Shown here one piece after another: positions 34,814 to 58,534 of a stretch of 64,000 nt of DNA. The notes beneath the pieces are model-generated. The model had not been told where the DNA came from. It did no database searches and saw only the letters and a list, made by a program, of their open reading frames with translations. The translations under genes and the position numbers were made by a program. This DNA comes from Mesobacillus jeotgali (GTDB lineage: Bacteria; Bacillota; Bacilli; Bacillales; Cytobacillaceae). The stretch spans positions 1,747,444 through 1,811,443 of the forward strand of contig NZ_FVZC01000009.1 of assembly GCF_900166585.1 (NCBI RefSeq). Reading direction: 5' to 3'. Position 1 is the first letter of the stretch. Each line of letters begins with the position of its first letter.

Positions 34814-35179
34814 TTATCTCACTTCCTGAAAATACTTTACTATCAGTTTATTAGAGCAATGCAGAATGGTGATACCCGAGTATGAAGACTTACTCTTTTA
34901 AAAAAGTCAAGCCATTCTGTCACACGCCTCCTTAGGTAAAAGTTATTTTGATCAGCTTTTCACAAGGTTGTTTTCACAGATTATTCACATTTACCTACCT
35001 TTGCATGTGACTTAAATCACTGTGTTGACGCGTTTTCACCATTACCATAGTAAATAAGTCAGGTATGAACAATTTGTGAACTGTCAGAAACCATATTTAC
35101 GTTTTCAAATTGTTTTGTATGATGAAAATGTACTCATCAATTTATCAACGACTTATTTATTCGAAGGGAGTTGACCGGG
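34814..35179. other. Upstream region of the ba3 oxidase operon
   Basis: About 365 bases, no gene; it carries the Fnr-like box and its promoter (listed separately). Confidence 0.6.
35006..35048 (+). promoter_or_regulatory. Fnr/Crp-like box and -10 of the cba operon
   Basis: TGTGACTTAAATCACT at 35006-35021, a near-perfect TGTGA-N6-TCACA palindrome. TACCAT begins 29.5 bases after its centre, the class II distance. Suggests activation under low oxygen or NO. Confidence 0.7.
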
Positions 35180-35329
35180 ATGGCTCAACCTGGGATCGGG
35201 AAGAAAACAAATACAAAGGTAGAGGATCAATCTTCCTTGAAAGGAACACTTGCATCTGTTTTCTTGTTAGGATTCTTTTTAATTGCCACTTGGGTAGGCG
35301 TTTATTTCTTGTTTGTAGATCGTTTCTAA
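35180..35329 (+). CDS. Cytochrome c oxidase subunit IIa (ba3 type)
   Basis: 49 residues, too short for common gene callers. The basic soluble N-terminus (MAQPGIGKKTNTKVEDQSS) is followed by one membrane helix (SVFLLGFFLIATWVGVYFLF), as in subunit IIa of Thermus ba3 oxidase. The start has AGGGAG nine bases ahead. It precedes subunit II by 25 bases, giving the IIa-II-I order of ba3 operons. Confidence 0.82.
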   Translation: MAQPGIGKKTNTKVEDQSSLKGTLASVFLLGFFLIATWVGVYFLFVDRF

Positions 35330-35354
35330 GAGACCAAAAGGGGAGAAGGAAATT

Positions 35355-35831
35355 ATGCACATTCATAAATTTGAAAAAATCTGGCTTATATTCGGGATTA
35401 CGACATTGCTAGTCTTCCTGACAGTCATCGGGGTCAGTGCATTTTATTTAGGCAACCAGCCGCCAAGCTGTCTGGCGACAATCAATCCGGAGAAGGTTGA
35501 CACAACCGCACCCTTCAATGAACCGGGTTTGAAAAAAGTTGAAGGAAAAGAGTGGGATTACGAACTTGTATACGTGGCCTCCGCATTTTCTTACAACCCT
35601 GCAAAGGTGGAAGTTCCACTAGGAGCAAAAGTAAAAGTAATTGCGACGACTAAAGACGTCATCCATGGTTTCGAAGTGGCGGGAACCAATATAAATATGA
35701 TGCTCGAGCCAGGTTTTATCAGTGAATATGTCACTACTTTTGATAAGGCCGGGGATTATCTGATCGTTTGTAATGAGTATTGTGGCGTCGGCCACCACAT
35801 GATGTCTTCTAAAATCGAGGTGGTAGAATAA
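35355..35831 (+). CDS. cbaA: ba3-type cytochrome oxidase subunit II
   Basis: 158 residues. One N-terminal membrane helix, then a cupredoxin domain outside the membrane. The dinuclear CuA site is VCNEYCGVGHHMM, with the distal histidine in DVIHGFEVAG. It passes electrons from cytochrome c to subunit I. ATG with AGAAGGA upstream; its stop overlaps the start of subunit I (TAATG). Confidence 0.92.
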   Translation: MHIHKFEKIWLIFGITTLLVFLTVIGVSAFYLGNQPPSCLATINPEKVDTTAPFNEPGLKKVEGKEWDYELVYVASAFSYNPAKVEVPLGAKVKVIATTKDVIHGFEVAGTNINMMLEPGFISEYVTTFDKAGDYLIVCNEYCGVGHHMMSSKIEVVE

Positions 35832-37486
35832 TGAATACAAAATCAATCAATCCAAGAGTTGACCGCCGTGATGGCAAACTATCAATGGCCCACTTCTATG
35901 TGGCTTTCATCGCTCTTGCAATCGGCGGACTTGCAGGCTTGCTGCAAACCCTTGTCCGTTCTGGAAAGTTCGAATTGCCTTCATGGACTGGATATTACCA
36001 GATCCTCACGATTCACGGTGTCGTACTGGGACTCGTTTTAACTACCTTTTTCATAATGGGCTTCCAGCTTGCCCTTGTAAGTAAAACATCAGGAACCTTA
36101 ACTGACAAACAGCGCCGTATCGGCTGGATCGGTTTCTGGACAATGACAATCGGTACTGTAATGGCCGCCATCATGATCCTTACTAACCAGGCTTCTGTAC
36201 TGTACACGTTTTACGCACCTTTACAGGCACATGCACTATTTTACTTAGGTCTGACACTTGTTATAGTCGGAAGCTGGATTGATGGTGCTGCAATCATCAT
36301 GGCTTACGCTTCCTGGAGAAAAGCAAACCCTGGCAAGCCTAGCCCGCTGCTGACTTTCATGTCTCTAGTAAACACACTTATGTGGATTGTAGCAACTATC
36401 GGCGTAGCTGCAACAGTACTTTTCCAGCTGCTGCCTTGGTCTTTAGGACTTGTAGAGCGTGTTGATGTATTGGTCAGCCGGACACTGTTCTGGTATTTCG
36501 GTCACCCGCTTGTATATTTCTGGCTATTGCCTGCATACATGGCTTGGTACGCAATCGTTCCAAAAATCATTGGCGGTAAAATTTTCTCTGATTCACTGGC
36601 AAGGATGTCCTTTATCCTGTTCCTGCTGTTCTCAATCCCTGTCGGTTTCCACCATCAGCTTATGGAACCAGGAATTGATCCGGCTTGGAAATTCCTTCAG
36701 GTAATTTTGACATTCCTTGTCGTTATTCCGTCACTGATGACCGCTTTTTCACTATTTGCCACATTTGAGATGTTTGGACGTTCTAAAGGTGCTACCGGCC
36801 TTTTTGGCTGGGTTAAAAAGCTGCCTTGGGGAGATGCACGCTTCGCAGTTCCATTCATCGGTATGCTTGCATTCATCCCTGCTGGTGCTGGCGGACTTGT
36901 CAACGCTTCTCACCAGCTGAACCAGGTAGTCCATAATACGATCTGGGTTACTGGGCACTTTCATTTAACTCTTGCAACTTCTGTAGTATTGACGTTCTTC
37001 GGAATCTCTTATTGGCTGGTCCCTCACCTTACTGGAAGGGTACTTACGAAAGCAATGAACAAATTAGCCATCATCCAGGGTGTTGTCTGGGCAATTGGGA
37101 TGACCTTCATGTCTGGAGCCATGCACGCAGCTGGATTGCTAGGAGCACCGCGCCGCTCCTCTTTCTCAACCTATGGAGGTTCAGAGCAAGCTGCTGAATG
37201 GATTCCTTATCAGGTAGCCCAAGCGATCGGTGGTTCTATCCTTTTCCTTGGTATCATCCTGATGCTCTATATTTTCATCAATCTTGCTTTCTTCGCACCT
37301 AAAGGTGAGGAAGAGTTCCCTGTAGGAGAGGTTGCTGATCAGGCCGAAAAGACTCCAATGGTATTTGAAAATTGGAAGCTATGGCTCGGTATCACAGTTC
37401 TTTTGATTCTGTTCGCCTACACAATTCCATTCATCGATATGATTCAAAATGCACCAATTGGGTCGAAGGGATACAAATTCTTCTAA
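35831..37486 (+). CDS. cbaB: ba3-type cytochrome oxidase subunit I
   Basis: 551 residues with about 13-14 membrane helices, heme-copper type B. CuB and heme ligands are in FWYFGHPLVYFWLLPAY, VGFHHQLMEP and VTGHFHLTLATS. It lacks the D-channel motifs of type A enzymes. Reduces oxygen to water with high affinity and pumps protons. Coupled to subunit II by a one-base overlap. Predicted Fnr-type control of the operon fits use at low oxygen. Confidence 0.93.
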   Translation: MNTKSINPRVDRRDGKLSMAHFYVAFIALAIGGLAGLLQTLVRSGKFELPSWTGYYQILTIHGVVLGLVLTTFFIMGFQLALVSKTSGTLTDKQRRIGWIGFWTMTIGTVMAAIMILTNQASVLYTFYAPLQAHALFYLGLTLVIVGSWIDGAAIIMAYASWRKANPGKPSPLLTFMSLVNTLMWIVATIGVAATVLFQLLPWSLGLVERVDVLVSRTLFWYFGHPLVYFWLLPAYMAWYAIVPKIIGGKIFSDSLARMSFILFLLFSIPVGFHHQLMEPGIDPAWKFLQVILTFLVVIPSLMTAFSLFATFEMFGRSKGATGLFGWVKKLPWGDARFAVPFIGMLAFIPAGAGGLVNASHQLNQVVHNTIWVTGHFHLTLATSVVLTFFGISYWLVPHLTGRVLTKAMNKLAIIQGVVWAIGMTFMSGAMHAAGLLGAPRRSSFSTYGGSEQAAEWIPYQVAQAIGGSILFLGIILMLYIFINLAFFAPKGEEEFPVGEVADQAEKTPMVFENWKLWLGITVLLILFAYTIPFIDMIQNAPIGSKGYKFF

Positions 37487-37530
37487 TAATGAACGGGCTT
37501 TCTTTTTAAAAAAATATTAATTCTAGCAAA

Positions 37531-37570
37531 ACAGGGGATGAAATCTGTCGCGATATCATCCCCTGTTTTT
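37531..37570 (+). terminator. Terminator of the cba operon
   Basis: ACAGGGGATGA-loop-TCATCCCCTGT followed by TTTTT. Confidence 0.88.
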
Positions 37571-37685
37571 TACTGTTACCACAGAATTTTAGCAGGACAA
37601 AAATTAAGAACACCGACCTGAATTACACAATAGTCTGCATGCTGATCATGTTCATTTTGGCTACAATATGAACATCTATATTATA

Positions 37686-37718
37686 AAAAAACAATAGGAT
37701 GCCGCAGCATCCTATTGT
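37686..37718 (-). terminator. Terminator of asnS
   Basis: Minus-strand ACAATAGGATGC-TGC-GGCATCCTATTGT followed by seven T. Confidence 0.9.
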
Positions 37719-37739
37719 CCTTTATTTACATAGATGAAA

Positions 37740-39131
37740 TTAAAAATCTGCATTTCCTGGTGTACGAGGGAATGGAATGACATCTCGGATATTTTTCATA
37801 CCGGTTAAATACATGACAAGTCGTTCGAACCCAATTCCATAGCCGGAATGCTTGGTGCCGCCGTATTTTCTAAGCTCGAGATACCACCAATAATCTTCTT
37901 CCGCCATACCAAGTTCTTTAATCCGTTCTGCAAGGACATCTTCTCTTTCCTCACGCTGGCTTCCGCCGATTAACTCGCCGATGCCGGGAACCAAAAGATC
38001 GGTTGCTGCAACTGTCTTGCCATCCTCATTCGCTCTCATATAAAATGCCTTGATTTCTTTCGGATAGTCAGTTACGAAGACAGGACGCTTGTAAATTTCC
38101 TCGCTAAGGTAACGTTCATGTTCAGTTTGCAGGTCTGTACCCCATTCAACAGCGTATTCAAATTGCTTACCAGAGTTCTTTAATAATTCAACAGCTTCGC
38201 TATAAGTAACCCTTCCGAAATCAGAATTTAAAGCATTCTGCAATCTTTCAATAAGTGTTTTATCAATAAAGCTGTTAAAGAAATCCATTTCTTCTGGTGC
38301 ATGCTCAAAAACATAATCAATGACGTACTTAATCATTTCTTCTCCAAGGTCCATGATATCCGGTAATTCCGCAAAGGCTACTTCCGGTTCGACCATCCAG
38401 AATTCTGCGGCATGTCGTGCCGTATTTGAATTTTCCGCCCTAAATGTCGGACCAAAGGTATACACATTACGGAAAGCAAGAGCAAAGCTTTCCGCATTCA
38501 ATTGACCGCTCACGGTTAAGTTGGTTTCTTTGCCGAAGAAATCTGCACTTTCATCCACATTACCGTCTTCAGTTTTTGGCAGCTGGTTCAAGTCCATCGA
38601 AGTCACACGGAACATTTCCCCGGCTCCTTCTGTATCGCTGCCGGTAATAATCGGTGTATGTACATAAACAAACCCTTTGTCCTGGAAGAATTTATGAAGA
38701 GCATAGGATGCAACAGATCTTACTCTAAAAACGGCCGAAAAGGCATTGGCTCTCGGACGCAAGTGAGCGATTGTTCTTAAATATTCAAGCGTATGCCGCT
38801 TTTTTTGTATAGGATAATCTGTATCCGATAATCCTTCGACGACAATTTTTGTCGCTTTAATTTCAAAAGGCTGTTTCATTTCCGGAGTTGGAACAAATTC
38901 ACCCTCTACTAAAACAGAAGAGCTAATCGGCAACTTTGTAATTTCTTTGAAGTTATCAAGCGTATCCTCAAAAACAACTTGTACACTCTTAAAGAATGTA
39001 CCATCATTCAACTCCATGAAGCCAATAGTTTTCGAATCGCGAAGAGTGCGTATCCATCCTGTTAATTGAACAGTTTTATCTTTAAAACTTTCTTGATTTC
39101 TGTATAGATCTTTTACTACGCTCTTGATCAT
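37740..39131 (-). CDS. asnS: Asparaginyl-tRNA synthetase, long form
   Basis: 463 residues, class IIb. The OB anticodon-binding domain comes first ([18 protein letters not shown]), then motif 2 [21 protein letters not shown] and motif 3 [13 protein letters not shown]. Start at ATG with AAGGAGG six bases ahead; the track start ten codons before has none. B. subtilis AsnS has about 430 residues and a different N-terminus, while this one looks like the ~465-residue type of clostridia and enterobacteria. It is T-box controlled. A standard short asnS usually sits beside aspB, so this may be a second copy. Confidence 0.93.
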
Positions 39132-39156
39132 GATAAGCCTCCTTATGGTAATTTTT

Positions 39157-39410
39157 TGCATTAAAAAAGCCTTCTATCCCTAAAAAAGGGACGAAAGGCT
39201 GAACTTCCGCGGTACCACCCAAATTGTCATAAAATGACCAACTTCATAATTGCTTCTCCCAGTCTATAACGTGCTGGACACGTCTAAGCCTACTCGTGAT
39301 TTCCCTTTCGGTTAGAACTCAAAGGTGTTCTTCATTTATGCATCATCACCAGGCTTCCACCGTCCCCGGCTCGCTATAGAATATAGCAAAAACTACTTTC
39401 CTTTTCATCG
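39157..39410 (-). promoter_or_regulatory. T-box leader for tRNA-Asn ahead of asnS
   Basis: Minus-strand leader with the T-box core GGGTGGTACCGCGGAAG and a competing terminator GCCTTTCGTCCC-TTTTTTAGGGATAGAAGGC-TTTTTT. Stem I begins with AAAAGGAAAGTAGTTTTT, whose AAAGG pairs with CCTTT; in the loop opposite AGUA is AAC followed by A, at 39327-39329. AAC is an asparagine codon, which agrees with the gene it controls. Uncharged tRNA-Asn should relieve termination. Confidence 0.9.
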
Positions 39411-39439
39411 ATTTAGGTATGCTGTTTTCAAAAGGATTT

Positions 39440-39475
39440 TTACTGTAATAATTTATCACATAATAACAGCCTTTG
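39440..39475 (-). promoter_or_regulatory. Possible promoter of the asnS leader
   Basis: Minus-strand TAGACA, 17 bases, ATAAAT. Only a moderate match to SigA. Confidence 0.35.
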
Positions 39476-42533: not shown

Positions 42534-42767
42534 TTATTTTGTTTTCCCGATTGCCACACGCCATGTTTCCGGACCTTCCTCGAGATACTCCCATGAAAAA
42601 ATTTCTGGCCTTTCCATCATGAATTGATGGTGAAGCGGTCTTGGGTCATGATCATTGACAATTTGCATGAAATCTCCCGGATTCAGTGAATCAAAGTTTT
42701 GGAATATAGCAGGATGCTTTTCCCTTGGTGCATAATCAGGAACATTGATAATTACGTTGAAAGTCAT
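42534..42767 (-). CDS. DUF2249-domain protein
   Basis: 77 residues. NVIINVPDYAPREKHPAIFQ, then FDSLNPGDFMQIVNDHDPRP with L-HHQFMMERPEIFSWEY, is the DUF2249 sequence pattern; in Gram-positive denitrifiers it is often fused to or encoded beside hemerythrin or NO-related genes. A small TusA-like fold is likely. ATG with GGAGAGAGG. It has its own Fnr-like box and a perfect TATAAT upstream and a terminator after it, so it is a single-gene unit in the predicted regulon. Function unknown. Confidence 0.8.
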   Translation of the reverse strand: MTFNVIINVPDYAPREKHPAIFQNFDSLNPGDFMQIVNDHDPRPLHHQFMMERPEIFSWEYLEEGPETWRVAIGKTK

Positions 42768-42808: not shown

Positions 42809-42851
42809 ATTATAAAGCCGCTTCTTCCCCCCTGTTGTGAACCCGGTCACT
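42809..42851 (-). promoter_or_regulatory. Fnr/Crp-like box and -10 of the DUF2249 gene
   Basis: TGTGA-ACCCGG-TCACT at 42836-42851. On the minus strand a perfect TATAAT (42814-42809) begins 29.5 bases from its centre. On the plus strand TTGAAT (42873-42878) has the same distance, so the zinc-finger peptide gene could share the site. Confidence 0.75.
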
Positions 42852-42954: not shown

Positions 42955-43089
42955 ATGAAAGAGCTGGTAGGATCTTGTGATAAATGCGGAAAAGAAATTT
43001 TTTGCTTGGATGGCTTTTTAAATGGATTACATGACAATGGGAAATTGCTATGTTTTGAATGTGAAAAAGTCACTCAACAAGACTCATAG
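42955..43089 (+). CDS. Small zinc-finger peptide
   Basis: 44 residues, MKELVGSCDKCGKEIFCLDG and a later LCFECEK. Two CxxC pairs with a spacer of about 22 residues. Strong GGAGGG eight bases ahead of ATG. It lies between the Fnr-like box and norZ, in the NO block, and ends in a terminator shared with norZ. Unknown function; a zinc or iron site is inferred. Confidence 0.65.
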   Translation: MKELVGSCDKCGKEIFCLDGFLNGLHDNGKLLCFECEKVTQQDS

Positions 43090-43128: not shown

Positions 43129-45492
43129 TTATTCCTCTTCTACTGCCAAGTCTTTAACGGGCAGCTGCTCCTCTTCCTTGTGGGTTACTTTTCTCAGATT
43201 GAAGAGTGCCTTAATGCTGAAGACTGCCAGGGCAGCGACACCTATCAAGAAAATCGTGTCCGGAATAGCCCTTAAGGTCAGAAGCTTTTCGACCGGCTCC
43301 TGCTGTAAAAATTCAGCGGAACGTGAAGCTGCATATCCATTGAAGAAAGCTTCTTTAATTTGAAGGTAGCCAACCGGCAGCAAGGACAGAAATACCATGC
43401 CAGCCAAACCGGCGTTCAGCATGATGACGATGAATTTGACCCATCTATCACTCCACTTTTCAGGCTCGACGATATTACGAAGTGAATAGATCAATACTGC
43501 CCCGGCAAACATGCCATACACGCCCATCATTGAAGCGTGGCCATGTGTTGGAGTGAGAAACTGTCCGTGCTCAAAGAAGCTGACAGCGGGCAGGTTAATC
43601 AGGAAGCCCAATACACCAGCTCCCACAAGATTCCAGATTGCAACAGAAATCAAGAACCAGAATGTACCTTTATAAGGGAAATCGACTCCGCCGTCCCGCA
43701 TCATTTTATATTGCTCATATGCTTCTAAAATCAACAGAGTCAATGGGATGACTTCAAGTGCCGAGAATACTGCTCCCAATGCGATCCAAACCTCAGCTGA
43801 TCCGTTGTAGTAGTAGTGGTGGCCAATCCCGATGACACCCGCTCCCATTAGAAGGATCAACTGGAAATACAATGCTTTTACGGTCGATTTCTTTGTCACC
43901 AGATTCATTTGTACCATCAAGAACCCAATGACCACAACAGCGAATACTTCAAAAATCCCTTCCACCCAAAGATGGATAATCCACCAGCGCCAATAGTCGG
44001 CAAATGTATAATGTGTACCAGGATTGATCATGAAAGCGAAGAAGTAAAATGCTGGTACTGCAATAGCTGAATAGAATAACAGGTGAATCAAACCGCCTTT
44101 ATCAGACTCCCTCTTCAATCCGCTTCTGATGCCTCGGAATACGATGAATAACCAGATCAGCATGCCGACCGCGAGTATGAATTGCCATATGCGTCCCAGT
44201 TCGAGATATTCCCAGCCCTGATGACCAAGGAGGAACCAATTGTTGCCCAGGTAACCGTTGGCACCAAGCCATTGGCCAATCATGCTGCCAGCGACAAGGA
44301 CTACTAATGCCCAGAACAAAATATCTACCAGTAATCCCTGGCGTTTCGGCTCATGACCTCCTACAAGAGGGGCCACGAATATACCCATTCCAAGCCAGGC
44401 TGTCGCAATCCAGAAGATTGCAAGCTGCAAATGGAAGCCTTTCGTGATGTTAAACGGCAGAATGTCATGAATCCATTTGATTCCGAAGAAACTGTCAGGC
44501 TCAATATAATAGTGTGCCAACAACGCTCCAAACATTGATTGTATAAAGAACAAAACGGATACAATTGCAAAATACTTGGCTGTTTTCTTCTGCGAAGAAG
44601 TCAGGGGCAGCTTTTTCAAATCGATTTTAGGGAAGTTGTCCCCGGTATAGGCCTCTTTCATACCGAGATGATAGCGATAGAAGACAAACAGGATTAAGCC
44701 CACAAACAAAATCAATATCGTTACGCTGGCTCCGCTCCACCATACTGCTGAGAAGGACATTGTGTTTCCTGCGTCCTCATAATATGGCCAGTTATTTGTA
44801 TATGTGATTTTATCATCAGGTCTTTGCGTACTCGATAACCATGCAGTCCAGAAAAAGAAATCAGAAATTTGTTCAATCTGGTCACCTTTTGCTACCCACG
44901 CACGCTTGCCATCCGGCATGTGTTTTTCCTGGATCAATCCTGACTTAAGGCCCCAATCGTCGCCCTCTGTGAAAATAGTATGATAGAACTCCCTTATCTT
45001 TTGGTGACCAAAGACTTGCGCATCTGTGAGCACCAGTTTATCTTTATCGGAATCATAGTGATTCTCGCGCATTTCCTTCAATACTCTATCCCGAATGATC
45101 GTTTGGTCATCCTTGTTTAAATCTTTGAAGTCCTTTTTAAAATCTTCCTGAGACCTAAAATCCTGCATTCCTTCCGTGTAAATTTTTAGTGCCTCTGCAG
45201 TATAGTCAGGCCCCATATAGGAGCCGTGTCCCAGGACTGTACCATAATCCATCAGGCCATATTTCTGGAATACCGCCTGGCCGCCAACAATGCTTTCCTT
45301 CGTTAAAATAAGTTCGCCCTTCTCGCTTATGACTTCAAGCGGTCTAGGAGCCATCTCCTTAAAAATCCAGTAGCCTCCTGTCAGAAGTACTGTAAAGCTT
45401 AATAATAATGTAATAATAAGTACGGATTTCAGCAGTGAATTTCGATTTTTTTTGACCACTGCCTTTGTGGATGTTCCTTGCTGGATCTCCAT
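43129..45492 (-). CDS. norZ: Quinol-dependent nitric oxide reductase
   Basis: 787 residues in one chain, the fused qNOR form (NorB plus NorC-like N-terminus). An N-terminal helix is followed by a ~200-residue outer domain without a heme c CxxCH, then about 13 helices with WWRWWIIHLWVEGIFEVFAV, VIGIGHHYYYNGSAEVW and GHASMMGVYGMFAGAV, holding the heme and FeB histidines and the glutamate that marks NORs. It reduces two NO to N2O, using quinol. The reading frame is intact. ATG lies directly after GGGAGG, unusually close. The gene has an Fnr-like box upstream. Confidence 0.95.
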   Translation of the reverse strand: MEIQQGTSTKAVVKKNRNSLLKSVLIITLLLSFTVLLTGGYWIFKEMAPRPLEVISEKGELILTKESIVGGQAVFQKYGLMDYGTVLGHGSYMGPDYTAEALKIYTEGMQDFRSQEDFKKDFKDLNKDDQTIIRDRVLKEMRENHYDSDKDKLVLTDAQVFGHQKIREFYHTIFTEGDDWGLKSGLIQEKHMPDGKRAWVAKGDQIEQISDFFFWTAWLSSTQRPDDKITYTNNWPYYEDAGNTMSFSAVWWSGASVTILILFVGLILFVFYRYHLGMKEAYTGDNFPKIDLKKLPLTSSQKKTAKYFAIVSVLFFIQSMFGALLAHYYIEPDSFFGIKWIHDILPFNITKGFHLQLAIFWIATAWLGMGIFVAPLVGGHEPKRQGLLVDILFWALVVLVAGSMIGQWLGANGYLGNNWFLLGHQGWEYLELGRIWQFILAVGMLIWLFIVFRGIRSGLKRESDKGGLIHLLFYSAIAVPAFYFFAFMINPGTHYTFADYWRWWIIHLWVEGIFEVFAVVVIGFLMVQMNLVTKKSTVKALYFQLILLMGAGVIGIGHHYYYNGSAEVWIALGAVFSALEVIPLTLLILEAYEQYKMMRDGGVDFPYKGTFWFLISVAIWNLVGAGVLGFLINLPAVSFFEHGQFLTPTHGHASMMGVYGMFAGAVLIYSLRNIVEPEKWSDRWVKFIVIMLNAGLAGMVFLSLLPVGYLQIKEAFFNGYAASRSAEFLQQEPVEKLLTLRAIPDTIFLIGVAALAVFSIKALFNLRKVTHKEEEQLPVKDLAVEEE

Positions 45493-45553
45493 CCTCCCTG
45501 CAACCCCTTCCTAATTTGATTTGCTAGTTAAGCATAAAACCGATTGACCAGAG

Positions 45554-45596
45554 AGTTTGTGAACTTCCTCATTTAACAGGTGTGATATTTCCCACA
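45554..45596 (-). promoter_or_regulatory. Fnr/Crp-like box of norZ
   Basis: TGTGA-TATTTC-CCACA at 45581-45596. At the class II distance the minus strand has CAAACT, only a 3/6 match to TATAAT, so this promoter would rely on the activator. Confidence 0.6.
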
Positions 45597-45629: not shown

Positions 45630-45672
45630 TATGATTCAGGTCACTTAGCGCTCGAGGAACTGTTGATAGAAT
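45630..45672 (+). promoter_or_regulatory. Fnr/Crp-like box and -10 of the regulator gene
   Basis: TATGA-TTCAGG-TCACT at 45630-45645; TAGAAT at 45667-45672 begins 29.5 bases after its centre. Suggests that the regulator gene is controlled by itself or its paralog. Confidence 0.7.
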
Positions 45673-45712: not shown

Positions 45713-46402
45713 ATGCATATATCCCAAATCAGGCAGCAACTAAAGGAAGTCCCCATTTTCAAGGAATTATCCACTGAAGAGCTTGACCCGATTGTTGAAA
45801 TTGCCCAGCCGCGATTCTTTAAAAATAAAATGTATGCTTTTATGCAGGGAGACGCGCTTGACCGGGTTTTCTTCATCCACTCTGGTAAGGTGAAAATCTA
45901 TAAAACCGATTCCTCAGGGAGGGAACAAATCGTTTCAGTTCTGGAGACAGGTGAGATGTTCCCGCATGCCGGCTTCTTTAGAAAAGGCCAATACCCTGCA
46001 CACGCCGAAATGATGGAAGACACACAGATGATTGTCGTCCCGATTTCCAAATTTGAAGAAATCCTGGTAGCCTACCCAGAGCTCTCCATCAAGTTATTCA
46101 GGGTCCTTGGTGAGAAAATCATCGATTTGCAAGCTCGCCTTGAAGAACAAATTCTTCATAATACGTACGAGCAAATCATCATGCTCCTGCTTCGCCTTTG
46201 CAAAACAAATGGCGAAAAACGGGATCAAGGGTTTAAGCTGTCCACCCAATTCACCAATAAAGAATTCGCTAACATGATAGGCACTTCCCGTGAAACCGTC
46301 AGCCGGACCATCAATTATCTCAAGAAAAAACAATATTTAAATGTCGATTCGGATGGCTGTTATTTGATCGACCATGAAAAATTGCATCAGGAGTTATTTT
46401 GA
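45713..46402 (+). CDS. Crp/Fnr-family regulator (first copy)
   Basis: 229 residues. N-terminal cyclic-nucleotide-binding-like beta barrel (MQGDALDRVFFIHSGKVKIY), dimer helix and a helix-turn-helix with FTNKEFANMIGTSRETVSRT, whose recognition residues E-SR fit a TGTGA half site. There are only two cysteines, near LLLRLCKTNG and DSDGCYLI, and no Fe-S cysteine cluster as in Fnr, so its sensing is different (perhaps heme, NO or redox). It lies next to norZ, divergent, with a box of its own. About 60 percent identical by eye to the second copy at 56.4 kb. Confidence 0.9.
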   Translation: MHISQIRQQLKEVPIFKELSTEELDPIVEIAQPRFFKNKMYAFMQGDALDRVFFIHSGKVKIYKTDSSGREQIVSVLETGEMFPHAGFFRKGQYPAHAEMMEDTQMIVVPISKFEEILVAYPELSIKLFRVLGEKIIDLQARLEEQILHNTYEQIIMLLLRLCKTNGEKRDQGFKLSTQFTNKEFANMIGTSRETVSRTINYLKKKQYLNVDSDGCYLIDHEKLHQELF

Positions 46403-46421: not shown

Positions 46422-46464
46422 AGTGATGCACGTCACGGAAAAATCGATTGAAAATCATTATCAT
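46422..46464 (+). promoter_or_regulatory. Fnr/Crp-like box and -10 of the DUF2249 operon
   Basis: AGTGA-TGCACG-TCACG at 46422-46437, and TATCAT at 46459-46464, starting 29.5 bases from its centre. The predicted start near 46471 gives a ~31-base leader. Confidence 0.7.
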
Positions 46465-46501: not shown

Positions 46502-46741
46502 ATGGAACAAAAAACGATTGAACTGGATGTCAGAGAAGATATCAATAACAAGCTTGAGCCTTTCCAGAAAATCATGGAGGCGATTGGAGAGTTGAAATTG
46601 CATGACGTGCTCGTGCTGCATGCCCCCTTCAAGCCTGTCCCTCTTTACGGAGTTTTAAAGGCCAAAGGCTTTGAACACGAGGTTGAAAAAATAGAGGCAA
46701 AACACTATAAAATCACTTTTACCAAAATGGGAGGGAAATAA
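46502..46741 (+). CDS. DUF2249-domain protein (second copy)
   Basis: 79 residues from ATG-GAA-CAA; AAGGAG is nine bases ahead, whereas the ATG three codons earlier touches it. EQKTIELDVREDINNKLEPF, then LHDVLVLHAPFKPVPLYGVL, is the DUF2249/TusA-like layout, with a C-terminal beta strand YKITFTKMG. First gene of a four-gene operon; two bases separate it from the next gene. Unknown role. Confidence 0.75.
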   Translation: MEQKTIELDVREDINNKLEPFQKIMEAIGELKLHDVLVLHAPFKPVPLYGVLKAKGFEHEVEKIEAKHYKITFTKMGGK

Positions 46742-46742
46742 G

Positions 46743-46958
46743 ATGATTCTTGATAATAGAGGGCTTGAACCGCCGCAGCCGATGATGAGAACTCTGGCAG
46801 CACTTGAGGAGCTTGATGAGGGCCAGAATCTGATCATCATCAATGACCGCAGGCCGATGTTTTTGTTTGAGCAGCTGGATGAACTGGGTTATCTGTTTTT
46901 GACAGAACAACAGGAAGACGGAAGCTATCGTGTGACAATTTCCCGAAAAGCGGGGTGA
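46743..46958 (+). CDS. DUF2249-domain protein (third copy)
   Basis: 71 residues, MILDNRGLEPPQPMMRTLAA, then EGQNLIIINDRRPMFLFEQL, again DUF2249 with the RxPxxLFEQLxxxG feature common in this family. GGGAGGG ahead of ATG. It follows the second DUF2249 gene by one base and overlaps the next gene's upstream region. The pair may form a heterodimer. Confidence 0.75.
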   Translation: MILDNRGLEPPQPMMRTLAALEELDEGQNLIIINDRRPMFLFEQLDELGYLFLTEQQEDGSYRVTISRKAG

Positions 46959-46963
46959 TAGGA

Positions 46964-48205
46964 ATGTTTCAGCAAAGCAGCAACGAAACAAACATTAAGC
47001 TGCCTTTTTCATTCATCGCTTTCAGCATGCTAGCGTTGATTTCATCCCAGCTGCTGATCCTGCTGAACGGGGATGTATTCATTACAGGTATATTCCGTCT
47101 GCCGGCTATCTGGTCTGCAGCCCATTTATTCGCTCTAGGCTGGGCATTGATGGTTGCGATGGGAGCTATGTACCAGCTGGTGCCAGTCGCATTCCTGACT
47201 CCTATTTGGAGTGAAAAGTTCGGCTTCTGGCAGTTTGCCGTCACATCAATTGGAATTCTAACATTTGCTACGGCGCTTTATCTTCGTCCACAGAATGCTC
47301 TGATTCCTGGAATATTGACGTTAATAGGCATCCTGATGTTCCTTTTTCAAATGTTCATGACGCTGAAAAGCCAGGCAAAACCGACCATACTCACTTTGTT
47401 TGTCGGCAGCGCATTATTGTCACTCCTGCTGACCATAAGCCTGGGTATCACGCTCGTGTTAAGCATAAAAACTGGCTTCGCATCTGATTATTACCAGGCT
47501 ATTTTCAAGACGCATATACTCCTCGGTACAGTCGGGTGGTTCTCACTGCTGATTTTCGGCTTCTCATATAAAATGGTACCCATGTTTTCACTTTCACATG
47601 GGTATACCATGAAACCGGCAGCATATGTGTTCGCAGTTTATTTTACCGGTATTATATTGCTGATTTCCTCATTCATTAAAGACAGCCATTTGCTAGAAAC
47701 CCTGGGGACTTTCATGCTATTGGCTGGATTCACGGTTTTCATGTGGCATGTCAAAATAATTATCGATAAGCGTGTGAAAAAGAAGCTGGACCGTCCTTTT
47801 ATGTTCGCCTTATTCGCGATTGTCTGCGGTGCTGCCATTCACCTGGCCGCTTTTGCAGCAAGTTCTGTAAACCTTCTCACGAAATTGGCGGGACCCATTT
47901 TATTATTGTACTTGATCGCCTGGATTGCTTTTAGCATCATCGGTTACTTGTATAAGATCGTTCCATTCCTATGGTGGACGCATAAATACAGCAAGGAAAT
48001 CGGCAAAAAACAGGTACCTGCCTTAAAAGATATGATGGATGAAAAACTGGCACTACCCTTGTTCATGCTATTCACGGGCGGAACATTGCTTCTAATTCTA
48101 TCCTTGTTTTTCAAATTCCTGGCGATTTTCTATATCGGCCAGTGCCTGATTTTGACTGCAGCGCTTCTGTTCGGCTACGTCATCATAAAAGTGTTAACAC
48201 TCTAA
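46964..48205 (+). CDS. Polytopic membrane protein, NnrS/heme-copper-like
   Basis: 413 residues, about 12 membrane helices. Conserved-looking histidines lie within helices: IWSAAHLFALGW, AIFKTHILLGTVGWFSLL, GAAIHLAAFAASS and FLWWTHKYSKE. The layout is like NnrS, a heme-copper membrane protein tied to NO tolerance, and like subunit I-type heme proteins. I start at ATG (GGGGTG six bases ahead) rather than at the overlapping GTG three codons earlier. It sits in the operon with two DUF2249 proteins and DUF59. A NO-related role is inference. Confidence 0.7.
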   Translation: MFQQSSNETNIKLPFSFIAFSMLALISSQLLILLNGDVFITGIFRLPAIWSAAHLFALGWALMVAMGAMYQLVPVAFLTPIWSEKFGFWQFAVTSIGILTFATALYLRPQNALIPGILTLIGILMFLFQMFMTLKSQAKPTILTLFVGSALLSLLLTISLGITLVLSIKTGFASDYYQAIFKTHILLGTVGWFSLLIFGFSYKMVPMFSLSHGYTMKPAAYVFAVYFTGIILLISSFIKDSHLLETLGTFMLLAGFTVFMWHVKIIIDKRVKKKLDRPFMFALFAIVCGAAIHLAAFAASSVNLLTKLAGPILLLYLIAWIAFSIIGYLYKIVPFLWWTHKYSKEIGKKQVPALKDMMDEKLALPLFMLFTGGTLLLILSLFFKFLAIFYIGQCLILTAALLFGYVIIKVLTL

Positions 48206-48218
48206 GGAGGAAATCAAT

Positions 48219-48521
48219 ATGACAGACTTAAAAAATAAAATCAGAGAAGCTTTGAAGACAGTGTATGATCCTGAACTAAATATTAATGTCGTCGATTTAG
48301 GTCTAATCTATGATATTGAAATACCTGAACACCGAAAGGCAAGAATTTTAATGACATTAACTACCCCAGGCTGCCCTCTTCATGACAGCATTGCGGGCGG
48401 CATTAAATATTGTGTGCAGGGTATGGATGAAATTGATCAAGCAGACGTTGAGCTGACCTGGGAGCCTGCCTGGACACCTGACAGGATGACAGAGGATGGA
48501 AAAAGACAGCTGCAGGGATAA
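48219..48521 (+). CDS. DUF59/MIP18-family Fe-S assembly protein
   Basis: 100 residues. KTVYDPELNINVVDLGLIYD, then TLTTPGCPLHDSI with the conserved cysteine, are the PaaD/SufT-like DUF59 marks. The C-terminal ELTWEPAWTPDRMTEDGKRQ is standard. This group helps place Fe-S clusters into target enzymes. Last gene of the operon, with AAGGAGG. It may mature the nearby redox proteins. Confidence 0.88.
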   Translation: MTDLKNKIREALKTVYDPELNINVVDLGLIYDIEIPEHRKARILMTLTTPGCPLHDSIAGGIKYCVQGMDEIDQADVELTWEPAWTPDRMTEDGKRQLQG

Positions 48522-50178: not shown

Positions 50179-50584
50179 TTAATAACGTTCTGTAAGCCAT
50201 GTTTTGTACCATCGTACTGCAAACGACCAAAAGTCTCGTACTCCGGCGGTAATCATCTATCTACAGATGATGAATCATCTGTCCTTCCCTTCGTTCAGTT
50301 CCTTCAGGAAGGTGCCCCTACCATCGTTTGGGTTTCTCGCTCGTGGGGTTTACCTCGTTCCACCCTCCCAATTTCTTGGAAGGCTCCGTCACTGTGGCAC
50401 TTTTATAGGTATTCATGCCATATCGTTGCCGACTTAGGCATTTTCCCTGCCGTCAGCCAAGCGTGAGCCTGACTGCCCTGGCTTATGAATTGGCCAGGCA
50501 CGAACACTACAGGCATCTCAGCCTGTGCGAGCATGGACTTTCCTCTGCAGCAGAACTGCAGCGATTACCCGAACGTTATTAACA
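50179..50584 (-). ncRNA. rnpB: RNase P RNA, B type
   Basis: About 406 nt. The minus strand begins GTTAATAACGTTCGGGTAAT and ends CAGAACGTTATTAATGGG, the ends pairing as P1. Conserved core segments GAGGAAAGTCCATGCTC, GGCTGAGATGCCTGTAG, and the late GGGTGGAACGAGGTAAAC and ACGAGCGAGAAACCCAAA are present, as in bacillus type B RNAs. It cuts the 5' leader from precursor tRNAs. Located between gpsB and ypsC as in B. subtilis. Confidence 0.96.
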
Positions 50585-51877: not shown

Positions 51878-51886
51878 GCAGTCACT

Positions 51887-53918: not shown

Positions 53919-53932
53919 TTTCCCCCTCCTTC

Positions 53933-56209
53933 CTATACTGCCGTTTTTAAAAATAGATTCAATATTTTCACAACATCTTTTTTTGAGTGGATAGATGTTG
54001 TATCGGTCCCTATACATGATGGACAGCCATCTGAACACTGACAATTTAGGACCATTTGTTTCGTCTGGTTCAGAATGTCCTCAATGCCAGAATAGATTTT
54101 TTCGCTCAGGCCTATTCCACCAGGATAGCGATCGTAAAAGAAAATCGTTGGTTTTTCATTATGCGCTGCCTTCACCTGCGGAACTACATGGACATCAGAG
54201 GGATCGCACATCACAAATAATGGCGCGATATGCTTCAATGCCTGCGATGTACCGATCAATCCTTCCTCCAGACGGTCATCACTGAATTCTGACAGTTCCT
54301 TATTTAGAGATATCCATGCGGAGCTAGTGTGCAACTCCTCTTCTGGAAGATATATCGGGCCTGACCCGATATTTTCATGAGTCTCAAATCTGATTTTCTT
54401 AAAGATGGTAGCCATTGCCCTTACGCTTACATCACCATAGCCAATTTCTGTCTCGTCATTACCCCTGTGCTTGTCTTCTTCAAGTACACTGAGCTGGACG
54501 GCAAGATTGGCATCAGTAAAATAATCGACATCTACTTCACGGACGAACGCCTTCTTTTCTTCCCAATCAAGCTTTTCTACCTGGTATTGAATACCCTGGT
54601 GCAGATAAATCGCTTCTTCATGCAATAGGGTCATTGCTGAAAAAGTATCCATTTCACCAATTACCCGGACATTTGCGACATCTGATTGGTCGATAATCAC
54701 GACATTTTCCTGAGATGCCGACCGAAGACTGATATTATGGGCCGGGAAAGCATCATTCATCCAGAACCATTTTTCGCCGTTTTGGTGAAGAATCCGCTCT
54801 TCCGTTAAATATTCAAGAATTTCTTCAATTTCTGCTGCCCCGAAAGTGTCCCCCTTTTTAAAAGGCAATTCATACGAAGCACATTTGATATGGTCGATCA
54901 GGATGATCAAATTGTCAGGATTGATTCTGGCTGTTTCCGGACTGCGATTGAAAAAGTAATCCGGATTTTGGATGACATATTGGTCCAGGGGGCTTGAGCT
55001 AGCCACCATGATCACCACGGATTCTCCGTGGCGCCTGCCGGCACGCCCTGCCTGCTGCCAGGCACTTGCGATCGTCCCCGGATATCCGTTCATGATGCAT
55101 ACCTGCAGCTGTCCGATATCTACACCTAATTCAAGGGCATTCGTGCTGACCACTCCATATATTTCGCCGGAACGCAGTCCTTTTTCAATTTCCCTTCTCT
55201 CAGTTGGAAGATATCCGCCTCTGTACCCTCTTATAGCTTTGGGCCCAAGCTTATGCTTGACCAGTTCCTGAAGATAGGTTAGTAAAATCTCCACCCTTAC
55301 CCTGCTTCTTGCAAAGATGATGGTCTGGATCTTGTTTCTCAGGAATTCTCCCGCGAGCTTTCTGGTTTCAAGAGTCGCACTCCTGCGTACATTGAGCGGA
55401 ATATTGACAACTGGCGGATTATAGAATAAAAAATGCTTCCGTCCGGAAGGGGCTCCATTATTGTCTATTAATACCATTTCTTTCTCGGTCAAACCTTCTG
55501 CCAGTTCAAGTGGATTGGCAATAGTTGCGGATGTACAGATAAAAACAGGGTCACTGCCATAATAACGGCAAATTCTTTTCAGTCTCCTGATGACATTTGC
55601 AACATGGCTGCCAAACACTCCTCTGTAAATATGCAGTTCATCGATTACAACATATTTCAGATTCTCAAAAAGAGATACCCACTTAGTATGATGCGGGAGA
55701 ATCGCCGAGTGGAGCATGTCCGGATTGGTAATAACGATATGCCCTGCCCTCCTGACCTTCTGGCGTATATTAGATGGAGTGTCTCCGTCATATGTATAAC
55801 TGTTGATTGACAGTTCTGCCTCCTGAATCAATTCATTTATTTCACTTTTTTGGTCCTGTGCCAGTGCTTTCGTAGGAAACATATAAAGAGCTCTCGCATT
55901 TGGATCATCAATGATGGATTGCAGTACCGGCAGATTATAGCATAGCGTTTTCCCTGAGGCTGTCGGTGTGACAGCAACAACGCTTTGCCCCTTCATGATT
56001 TGTTCGTAGGATGACCTCTGGTGTGTATACAACCGGGATATCCCACGCCTTTCCAGAGCACTTTTCAGGATTCCGCTTAAATCCTCTGGCATTTCTTCGG
56101 TCTGGGCTTCTTTTTCCTCAATTGTATGCCAGTGGACGATATTCTTCTTTACCGATTCACTAACCTTTAAGTCTTGCAAAATCTCTTGCATGCTTTTCCG
56201 GACTTTCAT
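53933..56209 (-). CDS. mrfA: MrfA DEAD/DEAH helicase (YprA)
   Basis: 758 residues. VTPTASGKTLCYNLP is motif I, YVVIDELHIY motif II (DELH rather than DEAH), FICTSATI motif III, and QQAGRAGRRHG motif VI. The C-terminal DUF1998 region contains LNCQCSDGCPSCIG, a four-cysteine metal site. B. subtilis MrfA unwinds DNA 3' to 5' and repairs mitomycin damage with MrfB. Start is ATG with GAGGTG six bases ahead. Operon mrfA-mrfB. Confidence 0.92.
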   Translation of the reverse strand: MKVRKSMQEILQDLKVSESVKKNIVHWHTIEEKEAQTEEMPEDLSGILKSALERRGISRLYTHQRSSYEQIMKGQSVVAVTPTASGKTLCYNLPVLQSIIDDPNARALYMFPTKALAQDQKSEINELIQEAELSINSYTYDGDTPSNIRQKVRRAGHIVITNPDMLHSAILPHHTKWVSLFENLKYVVIDELHIYRGVFGSHVANVIRRLKRICRYYGSDPVFICTSATIANPLELAEGLTEKEMVLIDNNGAPSGRKHFLFYNPPVVNIPLNVRRSATLETRKLAGEFLRNKIQTIIFARSRVRVEILLTYLQELVKHKLGPKAIRGYRGGYLPTERREIEKGLRSGEIYGVVSTNALELGVDIGQLQVCIMNGYPGTIASAWQQAGRAGRRHGESVVIMVASSSPLDQYVIQNPDYFFNRSPETARINPDNLIILIDHIKCASYELPFKKGDTFGAAEIEEILEYLTEERILHQNGEKWFWMNDAFPAHNISLRSASQENVVIIDQSDVANVRVIGEMDTFSAMTLLHEEAIYLHQGIQYQVEKLDWEEKKAFVREVDVDYFTDANLAVQLSVLEEDKHRGNDETEIGYGDVSVRAMATIFKKIRFETHENIGSGPIYLPEEELHTSSAWISLNKELSEFSDDRLEEGLIGTSQALKHIAPLFVMCDPSDVHVVPQVKAAHNEKPTIFFYDRYPGGIGLSEKIYSGIEDILNQTKQMVLNCQCSDGCPSCIGTDTTSIHSKKDVVKILNLFLKTAV

Positions 56210-56398
56210 AACGTTCACCTCGTTATCCTTATTTTAGCGAATAAACGTTCGTTGCAAAAGAAAAATTATCATTAAACCAGGCTGCTAGATTTTGGCATTG
56301 CATTTATATCGAAGCTTCAATAGGAAATGCATATGTTTTTGAGCGTTCTTTTGCTAAAATGATAGAAGCGGACTATAGCTAATATAGAGGTGTTTCTT

Positions 56399-57091
56399 TT
56401 GGATAAAAATGAGATAAAAAAGGTCCTGGCTGGCTTTTCATTGTTCAGAGATCTGGAAGATGATGAACTTGACAAGATCGTAGATATATCGATTTCCCGG
56501 GAATGGAAGAAAAATAGCCATATTTTCATGCAGGGGGACCCTCTTGAAAATGTTTATTTCATCCATGAAGGAAAAGTGAAAATCTATAAAAGCGATGCCA
56601 GTGGCCGGGAGCAAATTGTCGCCATTCTTAAAAAGGGTGAAATGTTCCCGCATGTGGGCTTCTTCAGGAAAGGCGGCTATCCGGGATACTCAGAGGTATT
56701 AGAAAGGGCAAACCTTGTCGTTGTCCCGATTTCACAATTCGAAAAGGTCCTTGTTGAAAACCCCCACTTGAGCATAAAGGTGTTCAAGGTGCTTGGGGAG
56801 AAAATTGTCGACCTTCAGGAAAGACTCGAAGCCCAAATCCTTAACAATACCTACGAACAAATCATTAAGCTTCTAATCAGGCTTGGTGAACTTCACGGAG
56901 AACAGCATGAAGATGGCAAGGTTCTATTGAAGACGGATTTTACAAACAAAGACCTGGCCAATATGATTGGAACGACCAGGGAAACGGTCAGCAGGACGTT
57001 GACCAAAATGAAAAAAGATAACCTATTATCCACCGATTCAAATGGGAATATGATATTTGACCCTGATGTGTTACTGGACGAGCTTGTCTAG
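56399..57091 (+). CDS. Crp/Fnr-family regulator (second copy)
   Basis: 230 residues, started at TTG with GAGGTG six bases ahead (the open frame's GTG lies in the binding site). Barrel HIFMQGDPLENVYFIHEG and helix-turn-helix FTNKDLANMIGTTRETVSRT; no cysteines at all, so no Fe-S or thiol sensor. The recognition helix is the same (E-T-SR) as in the first copy, so the two may bind the same boxes. It is convergent with hcp, and no Fnr-like box was seen ahead of it. Confidence 0.9.
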   Translation: MDKNEIKKVLAGFSLFRDLEDDELDKIVDISISREWKKNSHIFMQGDPLENVYFIHEGKVKIYKSDASGREQIVAILKKGEMFPHVGFFRKGGYPGYSEVLERANLVVVPISQFEKVLVENPHLSIKVFKVLGEKIVDLQERLEAQILNNTYEQIIKLLIRLGELHGEQHEDGKVLLKTDFTNKDLANMIGTTRETVSRTLTKMKKDNLLSTDSNGNMIFDPDVLLDELV

Positions 57092-57118
57092 ACCAGTCAT
57101 GAACTTCCTAAAAATAGC

Positions 57119-57152
57119 AAACACCCGAAGCAAATTGCTCCGGGTGTTTATT
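57119..57152. terminator. Terminator between crp/fnr copy 2 and hcp
   Basis: AACACCCG-loop-CGGGTGTT followed by TATTT; usable in both directions. Confidence 0.75.
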
Positions 57153-57154
57153 TA

Positions 57155-58456
57155 TTAGTTTGTTTTACTCATGCCCATCATTGTTTCCATGTCTTCCTTG
57201 GCTGTTGTGATTAACTTCAGGTTGAAGGTATCCTGAAGAACCTCCATCACACCTTCAGAAATGAATTCCGGCGGCTTTGGACCAATGCGGATATCCTGGA
57301 TACCGAGGCTGAACAGTCCAAGCAGGATGGCTACCGCTTTTTGCTCAAACCATGACAGGACGATGCTTACTGGAAGTTCATTCACGCCACATTCAAAAGC
57401 ATCAGCAAGTGCTTTGGCAATTTTCACTGTCGATACAGAGTTATTGCACTGCCCAAGATCCAGGTAACGTGGGATATTGGTTCCAGGAACCACTCCATAA
57501 TCTACATCATTGAAGCGGAACTTTCCACATGAAGTAGTCAGGATGACTGCTTCTGGAGGGAGTGATGTTGCAAGCTCTCGATAGTATTCCCCGCCTTTTC
57601 CTGGTGCATCACACCCGGCAATGACAAAGAAGCGCTTGATTTTGCCTGACTTAACTGCCTCGATTACTTCAGGAGCGAGACCAATGACTGTTTCATGGTG
57701 AAAGCCTGTCACCAATGTTTCATCCGATTCCATGTTAGCTTCTGGAAGCTCTAATGCTCTTTCAATCAGGATGGAGAAATCCTCATTTTCAATTTTTCTT
57801 ACATTTTCAAGCCCCGCCACTTCGTATGTAAACATACGGTCTGCATAGGAACCCTTGATTGGCATCACGCAGTTTGTCGTTGCCAGAATAGCGCCCGGGA
57901 ATTTTTCGAACAGACGGCGCTGGTCAAACCATGCCTTACCGATGTTCCCTTTTAGGTGCGGATATTTTTTCAATGCTGGATAACCATGGGCTGGCAGCAT
58001 TTCAGAGTGTGTGTAAATATTAATTCCTTTTCCTTCAGTTTGCTTCAATAATTCTTCAAGCGCGAACAGGTTGTGACCCGTTACTACGATTGCTTTACCT
58101 TCAATCTTATTCTGGCTGACCTTAACAGGCTGCGGAATGCCAAGGCGGCTTGTGTGGGCCTCATCAAGCATTTCCATAACACGTACTGCGGACTGGCCTA
58201 CCTTCATTGCCATATCAATATGTTCCTGTACATTAAAGTTTGAATTAGTCAATGTCATATATAATGCTTCGTGTGTGGTGGCATCGACAAATGAATCCGT
58301 GAATCCAAGCTGATTTGCATGGGTTCTGTATGCTGCAATGCCTTTTAGTGCAAAAATGATTGTATCCTGGAGACTTGCAATCGTTTCATCTTTCCCGCAT
58401 ACACCAACAACTTTACATCCACCTGTCGGAGTTTGTTCGCATTGGTAACAAAACAT
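57155..58456 (-). CDS. hcp: Hybrid-cluster protein / hydroxylamine reductase, short class
   Basis: 433 residues, against about 550 in E. coli, because an internal helical domain is shortened (class III Hcp). N-terminal cluster cysteines are in FCYQCEQTPTGGCKVVGVC, spaced 2, 7 and 5. The hybrid cluster ligands are all visible: VVTGHN, HSEMLPAHGY, ATTNCVMPI, IAGCDAPGK, LTTSCGKF, DLGQCNN and SWFEQKAV. Hcp reduces NO to N2O and can trans-nitrosylate proteins in anaerobic cells. ATG with AAAAGGGGA. A class II Fnr-like promoter precedes it. Confidence 0.93.
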   Translation of the reverse strand: MFCYQCEQTPTGGCKVVGVCGKDETIASLQDTIIFALKGIAAYRTHANQLGFTDSFVDATTHEALYMTLTNSNFNVQEHIDMAMKVGQSAVRVMEMLDEAHTSRLGIPQPVKVSQNKIEGKAIVVTGHNLFALEELLKQTEGKGINIYTHSEMLPAHGYPALKKYPHLKGNIGKAWFDQRRLFEKFPGAILATTNCVMPIKGSYADRMFTYEVAGLENVRKIENEDFSILIERALELPEANMESDETLVTGFHHETVIGLAPEVIEAVKSGKIKRFFVIAGCDAPGKGGEYYRELATSLPPEAVILTTSCGKFRFNDVDYGVVPGTNIPRYLDLGQCNNSVSTVKIAKALADAFECGVNELPVSIVLSWFEQKAVAILLGLFSLGIQDIRIGPKPPEFISEGVMEVLQDTFNLKLITTAKEDMETMMGMSKTN

Positions 58457-58492
58457 ATGTTTATTCCCCTTTTCGGCTTTATTTACTGTTTC

Positions 58493-58534
58493 AGCATAAC
58501 TAGGTTGATGAATTGGTTAAGTGACCTAAATCAC
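58493..58534 (-). promoter_or_regulatory. Fnr/Crp-like box and -10 of hcp
   Basis: AGTGA-CCTAAA-TCACA at 58519-58534. On the minus strand TATGCT (58498-58493) begins 28.5 bases from its centre, giving a start near 58486. Confidence 0.75.

Follow-up and report, generated by a model that had tools for sequence, protein, structure and literature searches.

Genes and predicted promoters of the locus

A stretch of 64,000 nucleotides from the genome of Mesobacillus jeotgali (assembly GCF_900166585.1, contig NZ_FVZC01000009.1, positions 1,747,444 to 1,811,443 of the forward strand), here called the window and supplying all coordinates below, encodes two paralogous regulators of the Crp/Fnr superfamily, Crp1 and Crp2, along with a quinol nitric oxide reductase (qNOR), a ba3-type oxidase, the hybrid cluster protein Hcp and several DUF2249 proteins. 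Palindromes of the TGTGA-N6-TCACA type occur upstream of the ba3 oxidase, DUF2249, qNOR, crp1 and hcp genes, and a first-pass annotation of this DNA had proposed that they unite genes for nitric oxide (NO) and low oxygen in one regulon. The features concerned are:

35006-35048, plus strand: predicted ba3 oxidase promoter, class II box TGTGACTTAAATCACT at 35006-35021, -10 TACCAT at 35043-35048
35180-37486, plus strand: ba3-type oxidase operon (CoxIIa-like 35180-35329, cbaB 35355-35831, cbaA 35831-37486)
42534-42767, minus strand: DUF2249 protein of 77 amino acids (PF10006, E 1.3e-26)
42809-42851, minus strand: predicted promoter of the 77-amino-acid DUF2249 gene, class II box 42836-42851, -10 TATAAT
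42955-43089, plus strand: four-cysteine protein of 44 amino acids, conserved in many Crp1 clusters
43129-45492, minus strand: qNOR (PF22085 and PF00115)
45531-45573, minus strand: predicted qNOR promoter, class II box 45558-45573, -10 TATGCT at 45536-45531
45581-45596, strand unassigned: extra box TGTGATATTTCCCACA, 23 bases farther from qNOR than its class II box
45630-45672, plus strand: predicted crp1 promoter, class II box, -10 TAGAAT
45713-46402, plus strand: Crp1, Crp/Fnr-family regulator of 229 amino acids without an iron-sulfur (Fe-S) cysteine motif
46422-46464, plus strand: predicted DUF2249 operon promoter, class II box, -10 TATCAT
46449-46463, plus strand: Fur-box-like TGAAAATCATTATCA, matching 13 of 14 fixed positions and overlying the -10
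46502-48521, plus strand: DUF2249 operon (DUF2249 46502-46741, DUF2249/TusA-like 46743-46958, COX1-like 46964-48205, DUF59 48219-48521)
56390-57091, plus strand: Crp2, a Crp1 paralog (56% identical) without cysteines
57155-58456, minus strand: Hcp, short form (profile matches)
58493-58535, minus strand: predicted hcp promoter, class II box 58520-58535, -10 TATGCT

In the ba3 oxidase operon the PF00116 and PF00115 matches are above the Pfam cut-off and that of the CoxIIa-like protein (PF08113) is below it. The COX1-like membrane protein of the DUF2249 operon, 413 amino acids long, is likewise below the Pfam cut-off, and the unit of COX1-like, two DUF2249 and DUF59 genes is preserved in many relatives.

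The promoters were described by a class II pattern, box-N21-TANNNT, in which the centre of a TGTGA-N6-TCACA-type box lies 29.5 bases before the start of the -10. The window holds six matches to this pattern, whereas 100 shuffles average 0.03 and never exceed one; the ba3 oxidase, DUF2249 (42767), qNOR, crp1, DUF2249 operon and hcp promoters account for one match each. The distance is exactly 29.5 bases at all six, which places every box centre at -41.5 relative to transcription starts inferred from the -10. The class II geometry proposed in the first-pass annotation is thus strongly supported, in the window as in the genome and its relatives; its fixed geometry stands, although the spread of 28.5 to 29.5 bases does not, and the arrangement that it had seen in five of six gaps fits all six promoters. 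Its six palindromes lie where it had placed them (58519 is really 58520), and they are intergenic provided that translation of the DUF2249 gene begins at the ATG at 46502. The 45581 box is the exception: there is no -10 at 29.5 bases from it. As the qNOR class II site it was rejected in favour of the weaker 45558-45573 box, missed earlier, which has the -10. Centred at -64.5 for qNOR and at -90.5 for crp1 (from the inferred start sites), the 45581 box recurs at an unchanged distance in the Mesobacillus loci and in a number of others.

Palindromes alone are uninformative. With up to two mismatches they number 23 in the window and 30.45 in shuffles, and with up to one mismatch 118 genome-wide against 81 in the control, so that the count was dropped as evidence. 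The suspicion that the sites are no commoner than chance is hence true of the palindrome by itself and false of the palindrome with a correctly spaced -10. Because the class II pattern was formulated after the sites were known, the window count is partly circular; independent evidence comes from the remainder of the genome and from other species.

Class II sites in the genome and in related loci

Across the 4.63 Mb genome the class II pattern has 21 matches, against one for the reversed pattern used as control, and 15 of the 21 are beyond the window. Three of these 15 precede genes of recognised NO-defence kinds, namely hmp (flavohaemoglobin), a truncated haemoglobin and a DUF438-hemerythrin-PAS protein. 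Further targets are a NirB-type nitrite reductase, a TIGR04053 radical SAM protein, ywiC, miaB and a hexapeptide-repeat protein. A membrane protein weakly matching nitrate-reductase gamma is another, as is a COX2-domain protein whose downstream neighbour was read as subunit I of a second ba3-type oxidase. The link to NO drawn in the first-pass annotation is clear for only some of the targets; the others include the nitrite reductase, the second ba3 oxidase and genes with no obvious NO role. Radical SAM genes behind a class II box adjoin Crp1-type or Fnr genes at L098 (TIGR04053, by hidden Markov model) and at L149 and L153 (by reading). Base preference was tried as a means of separating Fnr from Crp1 sites and abandoned: seven of ten hand-chosen own-genome sites end in TCACT, and no claim is made because sites in thermophiles often end in TCACA.

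Conservation was assessed in 63 loci around Crp1 relatives, with hand-picked non-redundant subsets of 38 loci for the spacing scan and 40 for the Fur-box and promoter-arrangement comparisons; denominators are loci that have the gene plus enough upstream sequence. In the 38-locus scan the 21-base spacing gave 98 matches, against two to 14 (mean 6) at 27 other spacings between 8 and 35. With up to three mismatches allowed, this class II arrangement precedes crp1 in 45/63 related loci, qNOR in 32/34, the 77-amino-acid (42767-type) DUF2249 gene in 39/49, the DUF2249 operon in 30/43 and coxIIa in 15/15. Means in the displaced-gap control, with up to two mismatches, were 0.02-0.05. At hcp a class II box is present in 11/16 loci, all 11 being among the 12 with the short form. 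The proposal of a common regulon is strongly supported by the exact spacing, the own-genome count and this conservation in Bacillaceae loci.

The gap holding the 42836 box serves the minus-strand 77-amino-acid DUF2249 gene. A promoter directed from that box towards the 44-amino-acid protein was rejected, as a -10 at the class II distance is not conserved in relatives. In L042, L048, L051 and L053 the gene for this four-cysteine protein directly precedes crp1 in the same orientation, and the L042 relative matched nothing in a scan with NCBIfam.

The Crp1 and Crp2 proteins

Both proteins match PF00027 and PF13545 above the cut-off and so belong to the Crp/Fnr superfamily. In the named collection the nearest relatives of Crp1 reach 93% identity, and most bear the label Mesobacillus or Bacillus. 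For the regulator, no NCBIfam model reaches its cut-off, and no specific name is given by the best 120 of 1273 relatives listed, which carry general Crp/Fnr or cyclic AMP (cAMP)-binding labels and, once, 'anaerobic regulatory protein'. As first noted, neither protein has an Fe-S cysteine motif: the only cysteines of Crp1 are at 163 and 216, Crp2 has none, and the C-terminal CxxCxxxxC ligands of Fe-S Fnr are found in neither.

In CRP, a Glu and an Arg of the phosphate-binding cassette contact cAMP. In place of the cAMP-holding loop of CRP, the pocket loop of Crp1 and Crp2 reads MFPHxGFFR...YPAHAE; the mycobacterial CRP segment GELSIF...GPRTSS aligns with PHAGFF...EYPAHA, and both the Glu and the Arg of the cAMP cassette are lost. 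The histidine of the pocket loop (85 in Crp1, 88 in Crp2) is nearly invariant. An AlphaFold model has a mean predicted local distance difference test score (pLDDT) of 88.2 and a predicted TM-score (pTM) of 0.62, and is least certain at residues 81-100, which form the pocket loop. In Foldseek, GlxR and mycobacterial CRP rank top by E-value, as they do in the sequence search, and among the 50 matches listed DNR (3dkw) is 49th by E-value with the highest TM-score, 0.72. From alignment and model, Crp1 and Crp2 are read here as something other than cAMP proteins, and to place a heme or NO site in them would be a guess. The recognition helix is RETVSR in Crp1 and Crp2 and RESVSR in one Fnr.

Sites in relatives that lack a Bacillus-type Fnr

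A C-terminal CxxCxxxxC is the signature of Bacillus Fnr. Ten genomes combine a strong Crp1 relative with no Bacillus-type Fnr (nine of 249 genomes of the order, plus Lysinibacillus antri), and none of their 26 PF13545 matches has the CxxCxxxxC motif. Of the 65 class II sites in these genomes, 14 are no more than 10 kb away from a crp1-type gene, against 0.4 expected, and they are spread over nine of the ten. Near the crp1-type genes the boxes adjoin hmp in G210 and G158, hcp in G088, the ba3 oxidase in G093 and G027, RIC/ScdA-like (repair-protein) genes in G089 and G253, and a DUF2249 operon together with a radical SAM gene in G234, while G100 combines several of these kinds; the RIC, radical SAM and some of the ba3 and DUF2249 names in these loci come from reading the translations. 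The single PF13545 protein of G210 is encoded divergently from hmp, with a box between the two genes.

Box or NsrR-like gene at hmp

In Bacillus, hmp has been assigned to the Rrf2-type repressor NsrR (Rodionov et al. 2005, PMC1274295; this and the other papers cited here are drawn on in excerpt). Twenty-nine hmp loci (L233-L261) from 28 of 36 Crp1-bearing genomes were scored for a class II box in the 300 bases before the gene and for an Rrf2 gene within 1.5 kb. Ten have the box, 19 have an adjoining NsrR-like Rrf2 gene, and no locus has both or neither; if kinship is ignored, the chance of such zero overlap is 1 in 20,030,010 (29 choose 10). Among the 19 NsrR-like loci, L244 and L248 carry a two-mismatch palindrome without a -10. 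Both states occur in G210, where one hmp lies beside the Crp gene with a box and the other beside an NsrR-like gene without one. Two of the adjoining Rrf2 proteins were scanned: for one the NsrR model gave the top score, and for the other RirA did, with NsrR next. Since none of these scores reached the curated cut-offs, the term used here is NsrR-like.

The M. jeotgali hmp has a class II box. Two Rrf2 proteins of this genome exceed the Pfam cut-off and were compared (L272 and L275 are weaker matches below it), and neither is NsrR-like; one is CymR, and the other reaches no NCBIfam cut-off and has HypR as its best specific model.

A Fur-like box at the DUF2249 operon

The sequence TGAAAATCATTATCA at 46449-46463, over the -10 of the DUF2249 operon, agrees with 13 of the 14 positions of the well-known Fur 7-1-7 consensus used for scoring. 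A match of at least 12/14 is present at this promoter in 15 of 23 hand-picked non-redundant loci, against 0.4% of shuffles (single-base shuffling), and is rare at the other promoters (crp1 3/40, qNOR 1/15, 42767-type DUF2249 0/28, coxIIa 0/11). Seven of the eight DUF2249 operon loci without a Fur match are also without the class II box, which L065 retains. Fur-like sequence between box and -10 is also present in L111, G100 and G234; the L111 promoter belongs to what looks like a second ba3 oxidase.

Other elements of the window

Ordinary RNA elements in the window include a T-box leader at 39184-39417, upstream of the gene at 37740-39161, and an RNase P class B RNA at 50188-50576. A cspA thermoregulator RNA lies at 21153-21570.

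Interpretation

The reading that we prefer, at a probability of roughly 0.7, is that the class II sites constitute an NO-stress regulon activated mainly by the subfamily of Crp/Fnr proteins without Fe-S centres to which Crp1 and Crp2 belong. In this mechanism Crp1 and Crp2 would sense NO or a signal derived from it and would then bind the TGTGA-N6-TCACA-type boxes centred at -41.5 and act on RNA polymerase as class II activators. The activator would raise the expression of its own gene, crp1 being putatively autoregulated through the class II box in front of it, and would turn on the NO reductase, hcp, hmp, the DUF2249 genes and the ba3 oxidase. At the DUF2249 operon the Fur box over the -10 would add iron-dependent repression, and with the class II box in front of it we propose that full expression of this operon needs both the activator and inactive Fur. 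In the M. jeotgali genome the regulon would stand in for NsrR, and Fe-S Fnr may share some of its sites under anoxia.

Several observations weigh against this assignment. Seven proteins of Crp/Fnr length in the M. jeotgali genome exceed the PF13545 cut-off (an eighth match, L008, is another kind of protein), and four of them (L001, L002, L003 and L005), all encoded outside the window, end in CxxCxxxxC and are predicted Fe-S-type Fnr paralogs, and Fnr could bind every box; the two local regulators are therefore not the sole candidates. At L003 the fnr gene adjoins ywiC and a narI-like gene. Upstream of crp2 the pattern search of the window found no class II box, the arrangement is missing at crp1 in 18 of the 63 related loci, and no target could be named for at least five of the genome's 21 matches (L093, L095, L100, L103 and L104). 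Among the ten genomes without Fnr, G096 has no class II site near crp1, and L. antri (L070) has no box at crp1 and a site at the ba3 operon. Three of these genomes also encode Crp-type proteins with cysteines elsewhere: L191 of G253 has a His/Cys-rich N-terminal stretch with three cysteines and another at 125, and from its sequence may hold a metal or cluster, and a CxxC is present in L196 and L206 of G096 and G027. When these three genomes are dropped, 12 of 45 sites are near crp1, and each of the seven genomes left contributes one or more of them. The claim of the first-pass annotation that one of the local proteins binds the sites is supported by the relatives without a Bacillus-type Fnr, but its list of candidates was too narrow.

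The numbers of class II sites bear on the same question. Their excess over the control was compared in 229 of the 249 genomes, with 16 set aside for an intermediate Crp match and four for an ambiguous Fnr match, under hand-chosen limits (Crp1 present at 1e-60 or below; Fnr present at 1e-35 or below and absent above 1e-26 or with no match). The mean excess is 12.8 in genomes with both proteins (n=60), 4.2 with Fnr alone (n=80), 3.3 with Crp1 alone (n=9) and 0.8 with neither (n=80). By Mann-Whitney tests, all of which ignore kinship, the Crp1 effect has P 3e-14 among genomes with Fnr and 0.04 among those without, and the Fnr effect among genomes without Crp1 has P 3e-7. The appreciable excess with Fnr alone and the small one with Crp1 alone likewise count against a regulon of Crp1 and Crp2. 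From these four classes both protein groups seem to use such boxes, and Crp1 seems to raise their number with or without Fnr.

A tentative alternative, which falls somewhat short of an even chance, is that the boxes are shared, with Fnr (for oxygen) and Crp1/Crp2 (for NO) competing or alternating on the same sites. The site excess is greatest where both proteins occur and their recognition helices are similar, and the arrangement can be likened to Pseudomonas aeruginosa, in which ANR and DNR act together on narK1K2GHJI (PMC8139620). Sharing nevertheless overlaps the NO-stress regulon set out above and differs from it mainly in emphasis, so that the odds of the two are not mutually exclusive.

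It appears unlikely that control rests with Fe-S Fnr alone, in which case the boxes would be ordinary anaerobic Fnr sites and Crp1 and Crp2 would do something else. The four CxxCxxxxC paralogs, the excess with Fnr alone over that with neither protein and the position of two own-genome sites (L098 and L099) beside fnr genes would all suit such an arrangement, but boxes next to crp1-type and NO-related genes persist in nine of the ten genomes without a Bacillus-type Fnr, and the site excess is threefold higher with both proteins than with Fnr alone. That the palindromes are chance, or a general feature of promoters in AT-rich gaps, agrees with the unremarkable count of palindromes alone and is refuted by the exact 21-base spacing at six of six promoters, the conservation across genera and the 21 genome matches against one, and can be discounted for practical purposes.

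A broader version of the NO-stress regulon, on which we are evenly divided, is that an NO-sensing Crp/Fnr subfamily found throughout Bacillaceae has repeatedly exchanged control of NO stress with NsrR, each hmp of the 29 loci having one control or the other, combined with an AND gate with Fur at the DUF2249 operon. NO disables Fur, and under the AND gate it would have two effects, switching on the Crp-type protein and inactivating Fur.

Relation to known systems

Regulators of this kind are already known elsewhere (DNR, NnrR, HcpR). With DNR and NnrR, the heme-based NO sensors of Proteobacteria, Crp1 shares the Crp/Fnr fold without Fe-S cysteines, a gene beside an NO reductase, and NO-handling genes with predicted sites beside the regulator; it differs in coming from another phylum and in that GlxR and mycobacterial CRP outrank DNR by E-value. 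HcpR, compared by description only, resembles it as an FNR-like factor over hcp and NO-stress genes, although it was described for other, diverse anaerobic bacteria (PMC1274295); in M. jeotgali it is crp2 that adjoins hcp, which has a class II box. Bacillus Fnr uses class II sites. Its consensus is the same TGTGA-N6-TCACA (PMC8151001), but Crp1 and Crp2 are without its C-terminal CxxCxxxxC. Bacillus NsrR controls hmp in NO stress, as is proposed here for Crp1 and Crp2, but is a repressor of the Rrf2 type, whereas Crp1 is of the Crp/Fnr type. DnrT of Thermus is a Crp-family activator of its own operon without Fe-S cysteines, and its mutants lose nor expression, although it belongs to a distant organism and works with DnrS (PMC5748679); the Thermus DUF2249 proteins DrpA and DrpB have been linked to nitrate respiration (PMC11218638). 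The excerpts of these two papers contain no regulon composed like the present one. In the fnr2-qnorB-dnrN cluster of Bacillus licheniformis a Crp/Fnr gene, called a second 'Fnr', adjoins qnorB and dnrN (PMC4719734), and is likened to crp1 by its gene neighbourhood; the excerpts of that paper mention neither sites nor a regulon or signal for it. In the titles and abstract openings of the open-licence literature searched, no description was found of a regulon of such make-up, of the Crp1/Crp2 group, of its exchange with NsrR or of the Fur overlap.

Accounts of NO defence in relatives of Bacillus usually centre on NsrR, ResD and Fnr. If the reading advanced here is true, it would supply a regulator for those Bacillaceae whose hmp has no adjoining NsrR, and would join qNOR (a source of nitrous oxide), Hcp, Hmp, the ba3 oxidases and the little-understood DUF2249 proteins in one response. 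Which signal the subfamily reads could then be put to a direct test, for which two genes and six promoters would suffice.

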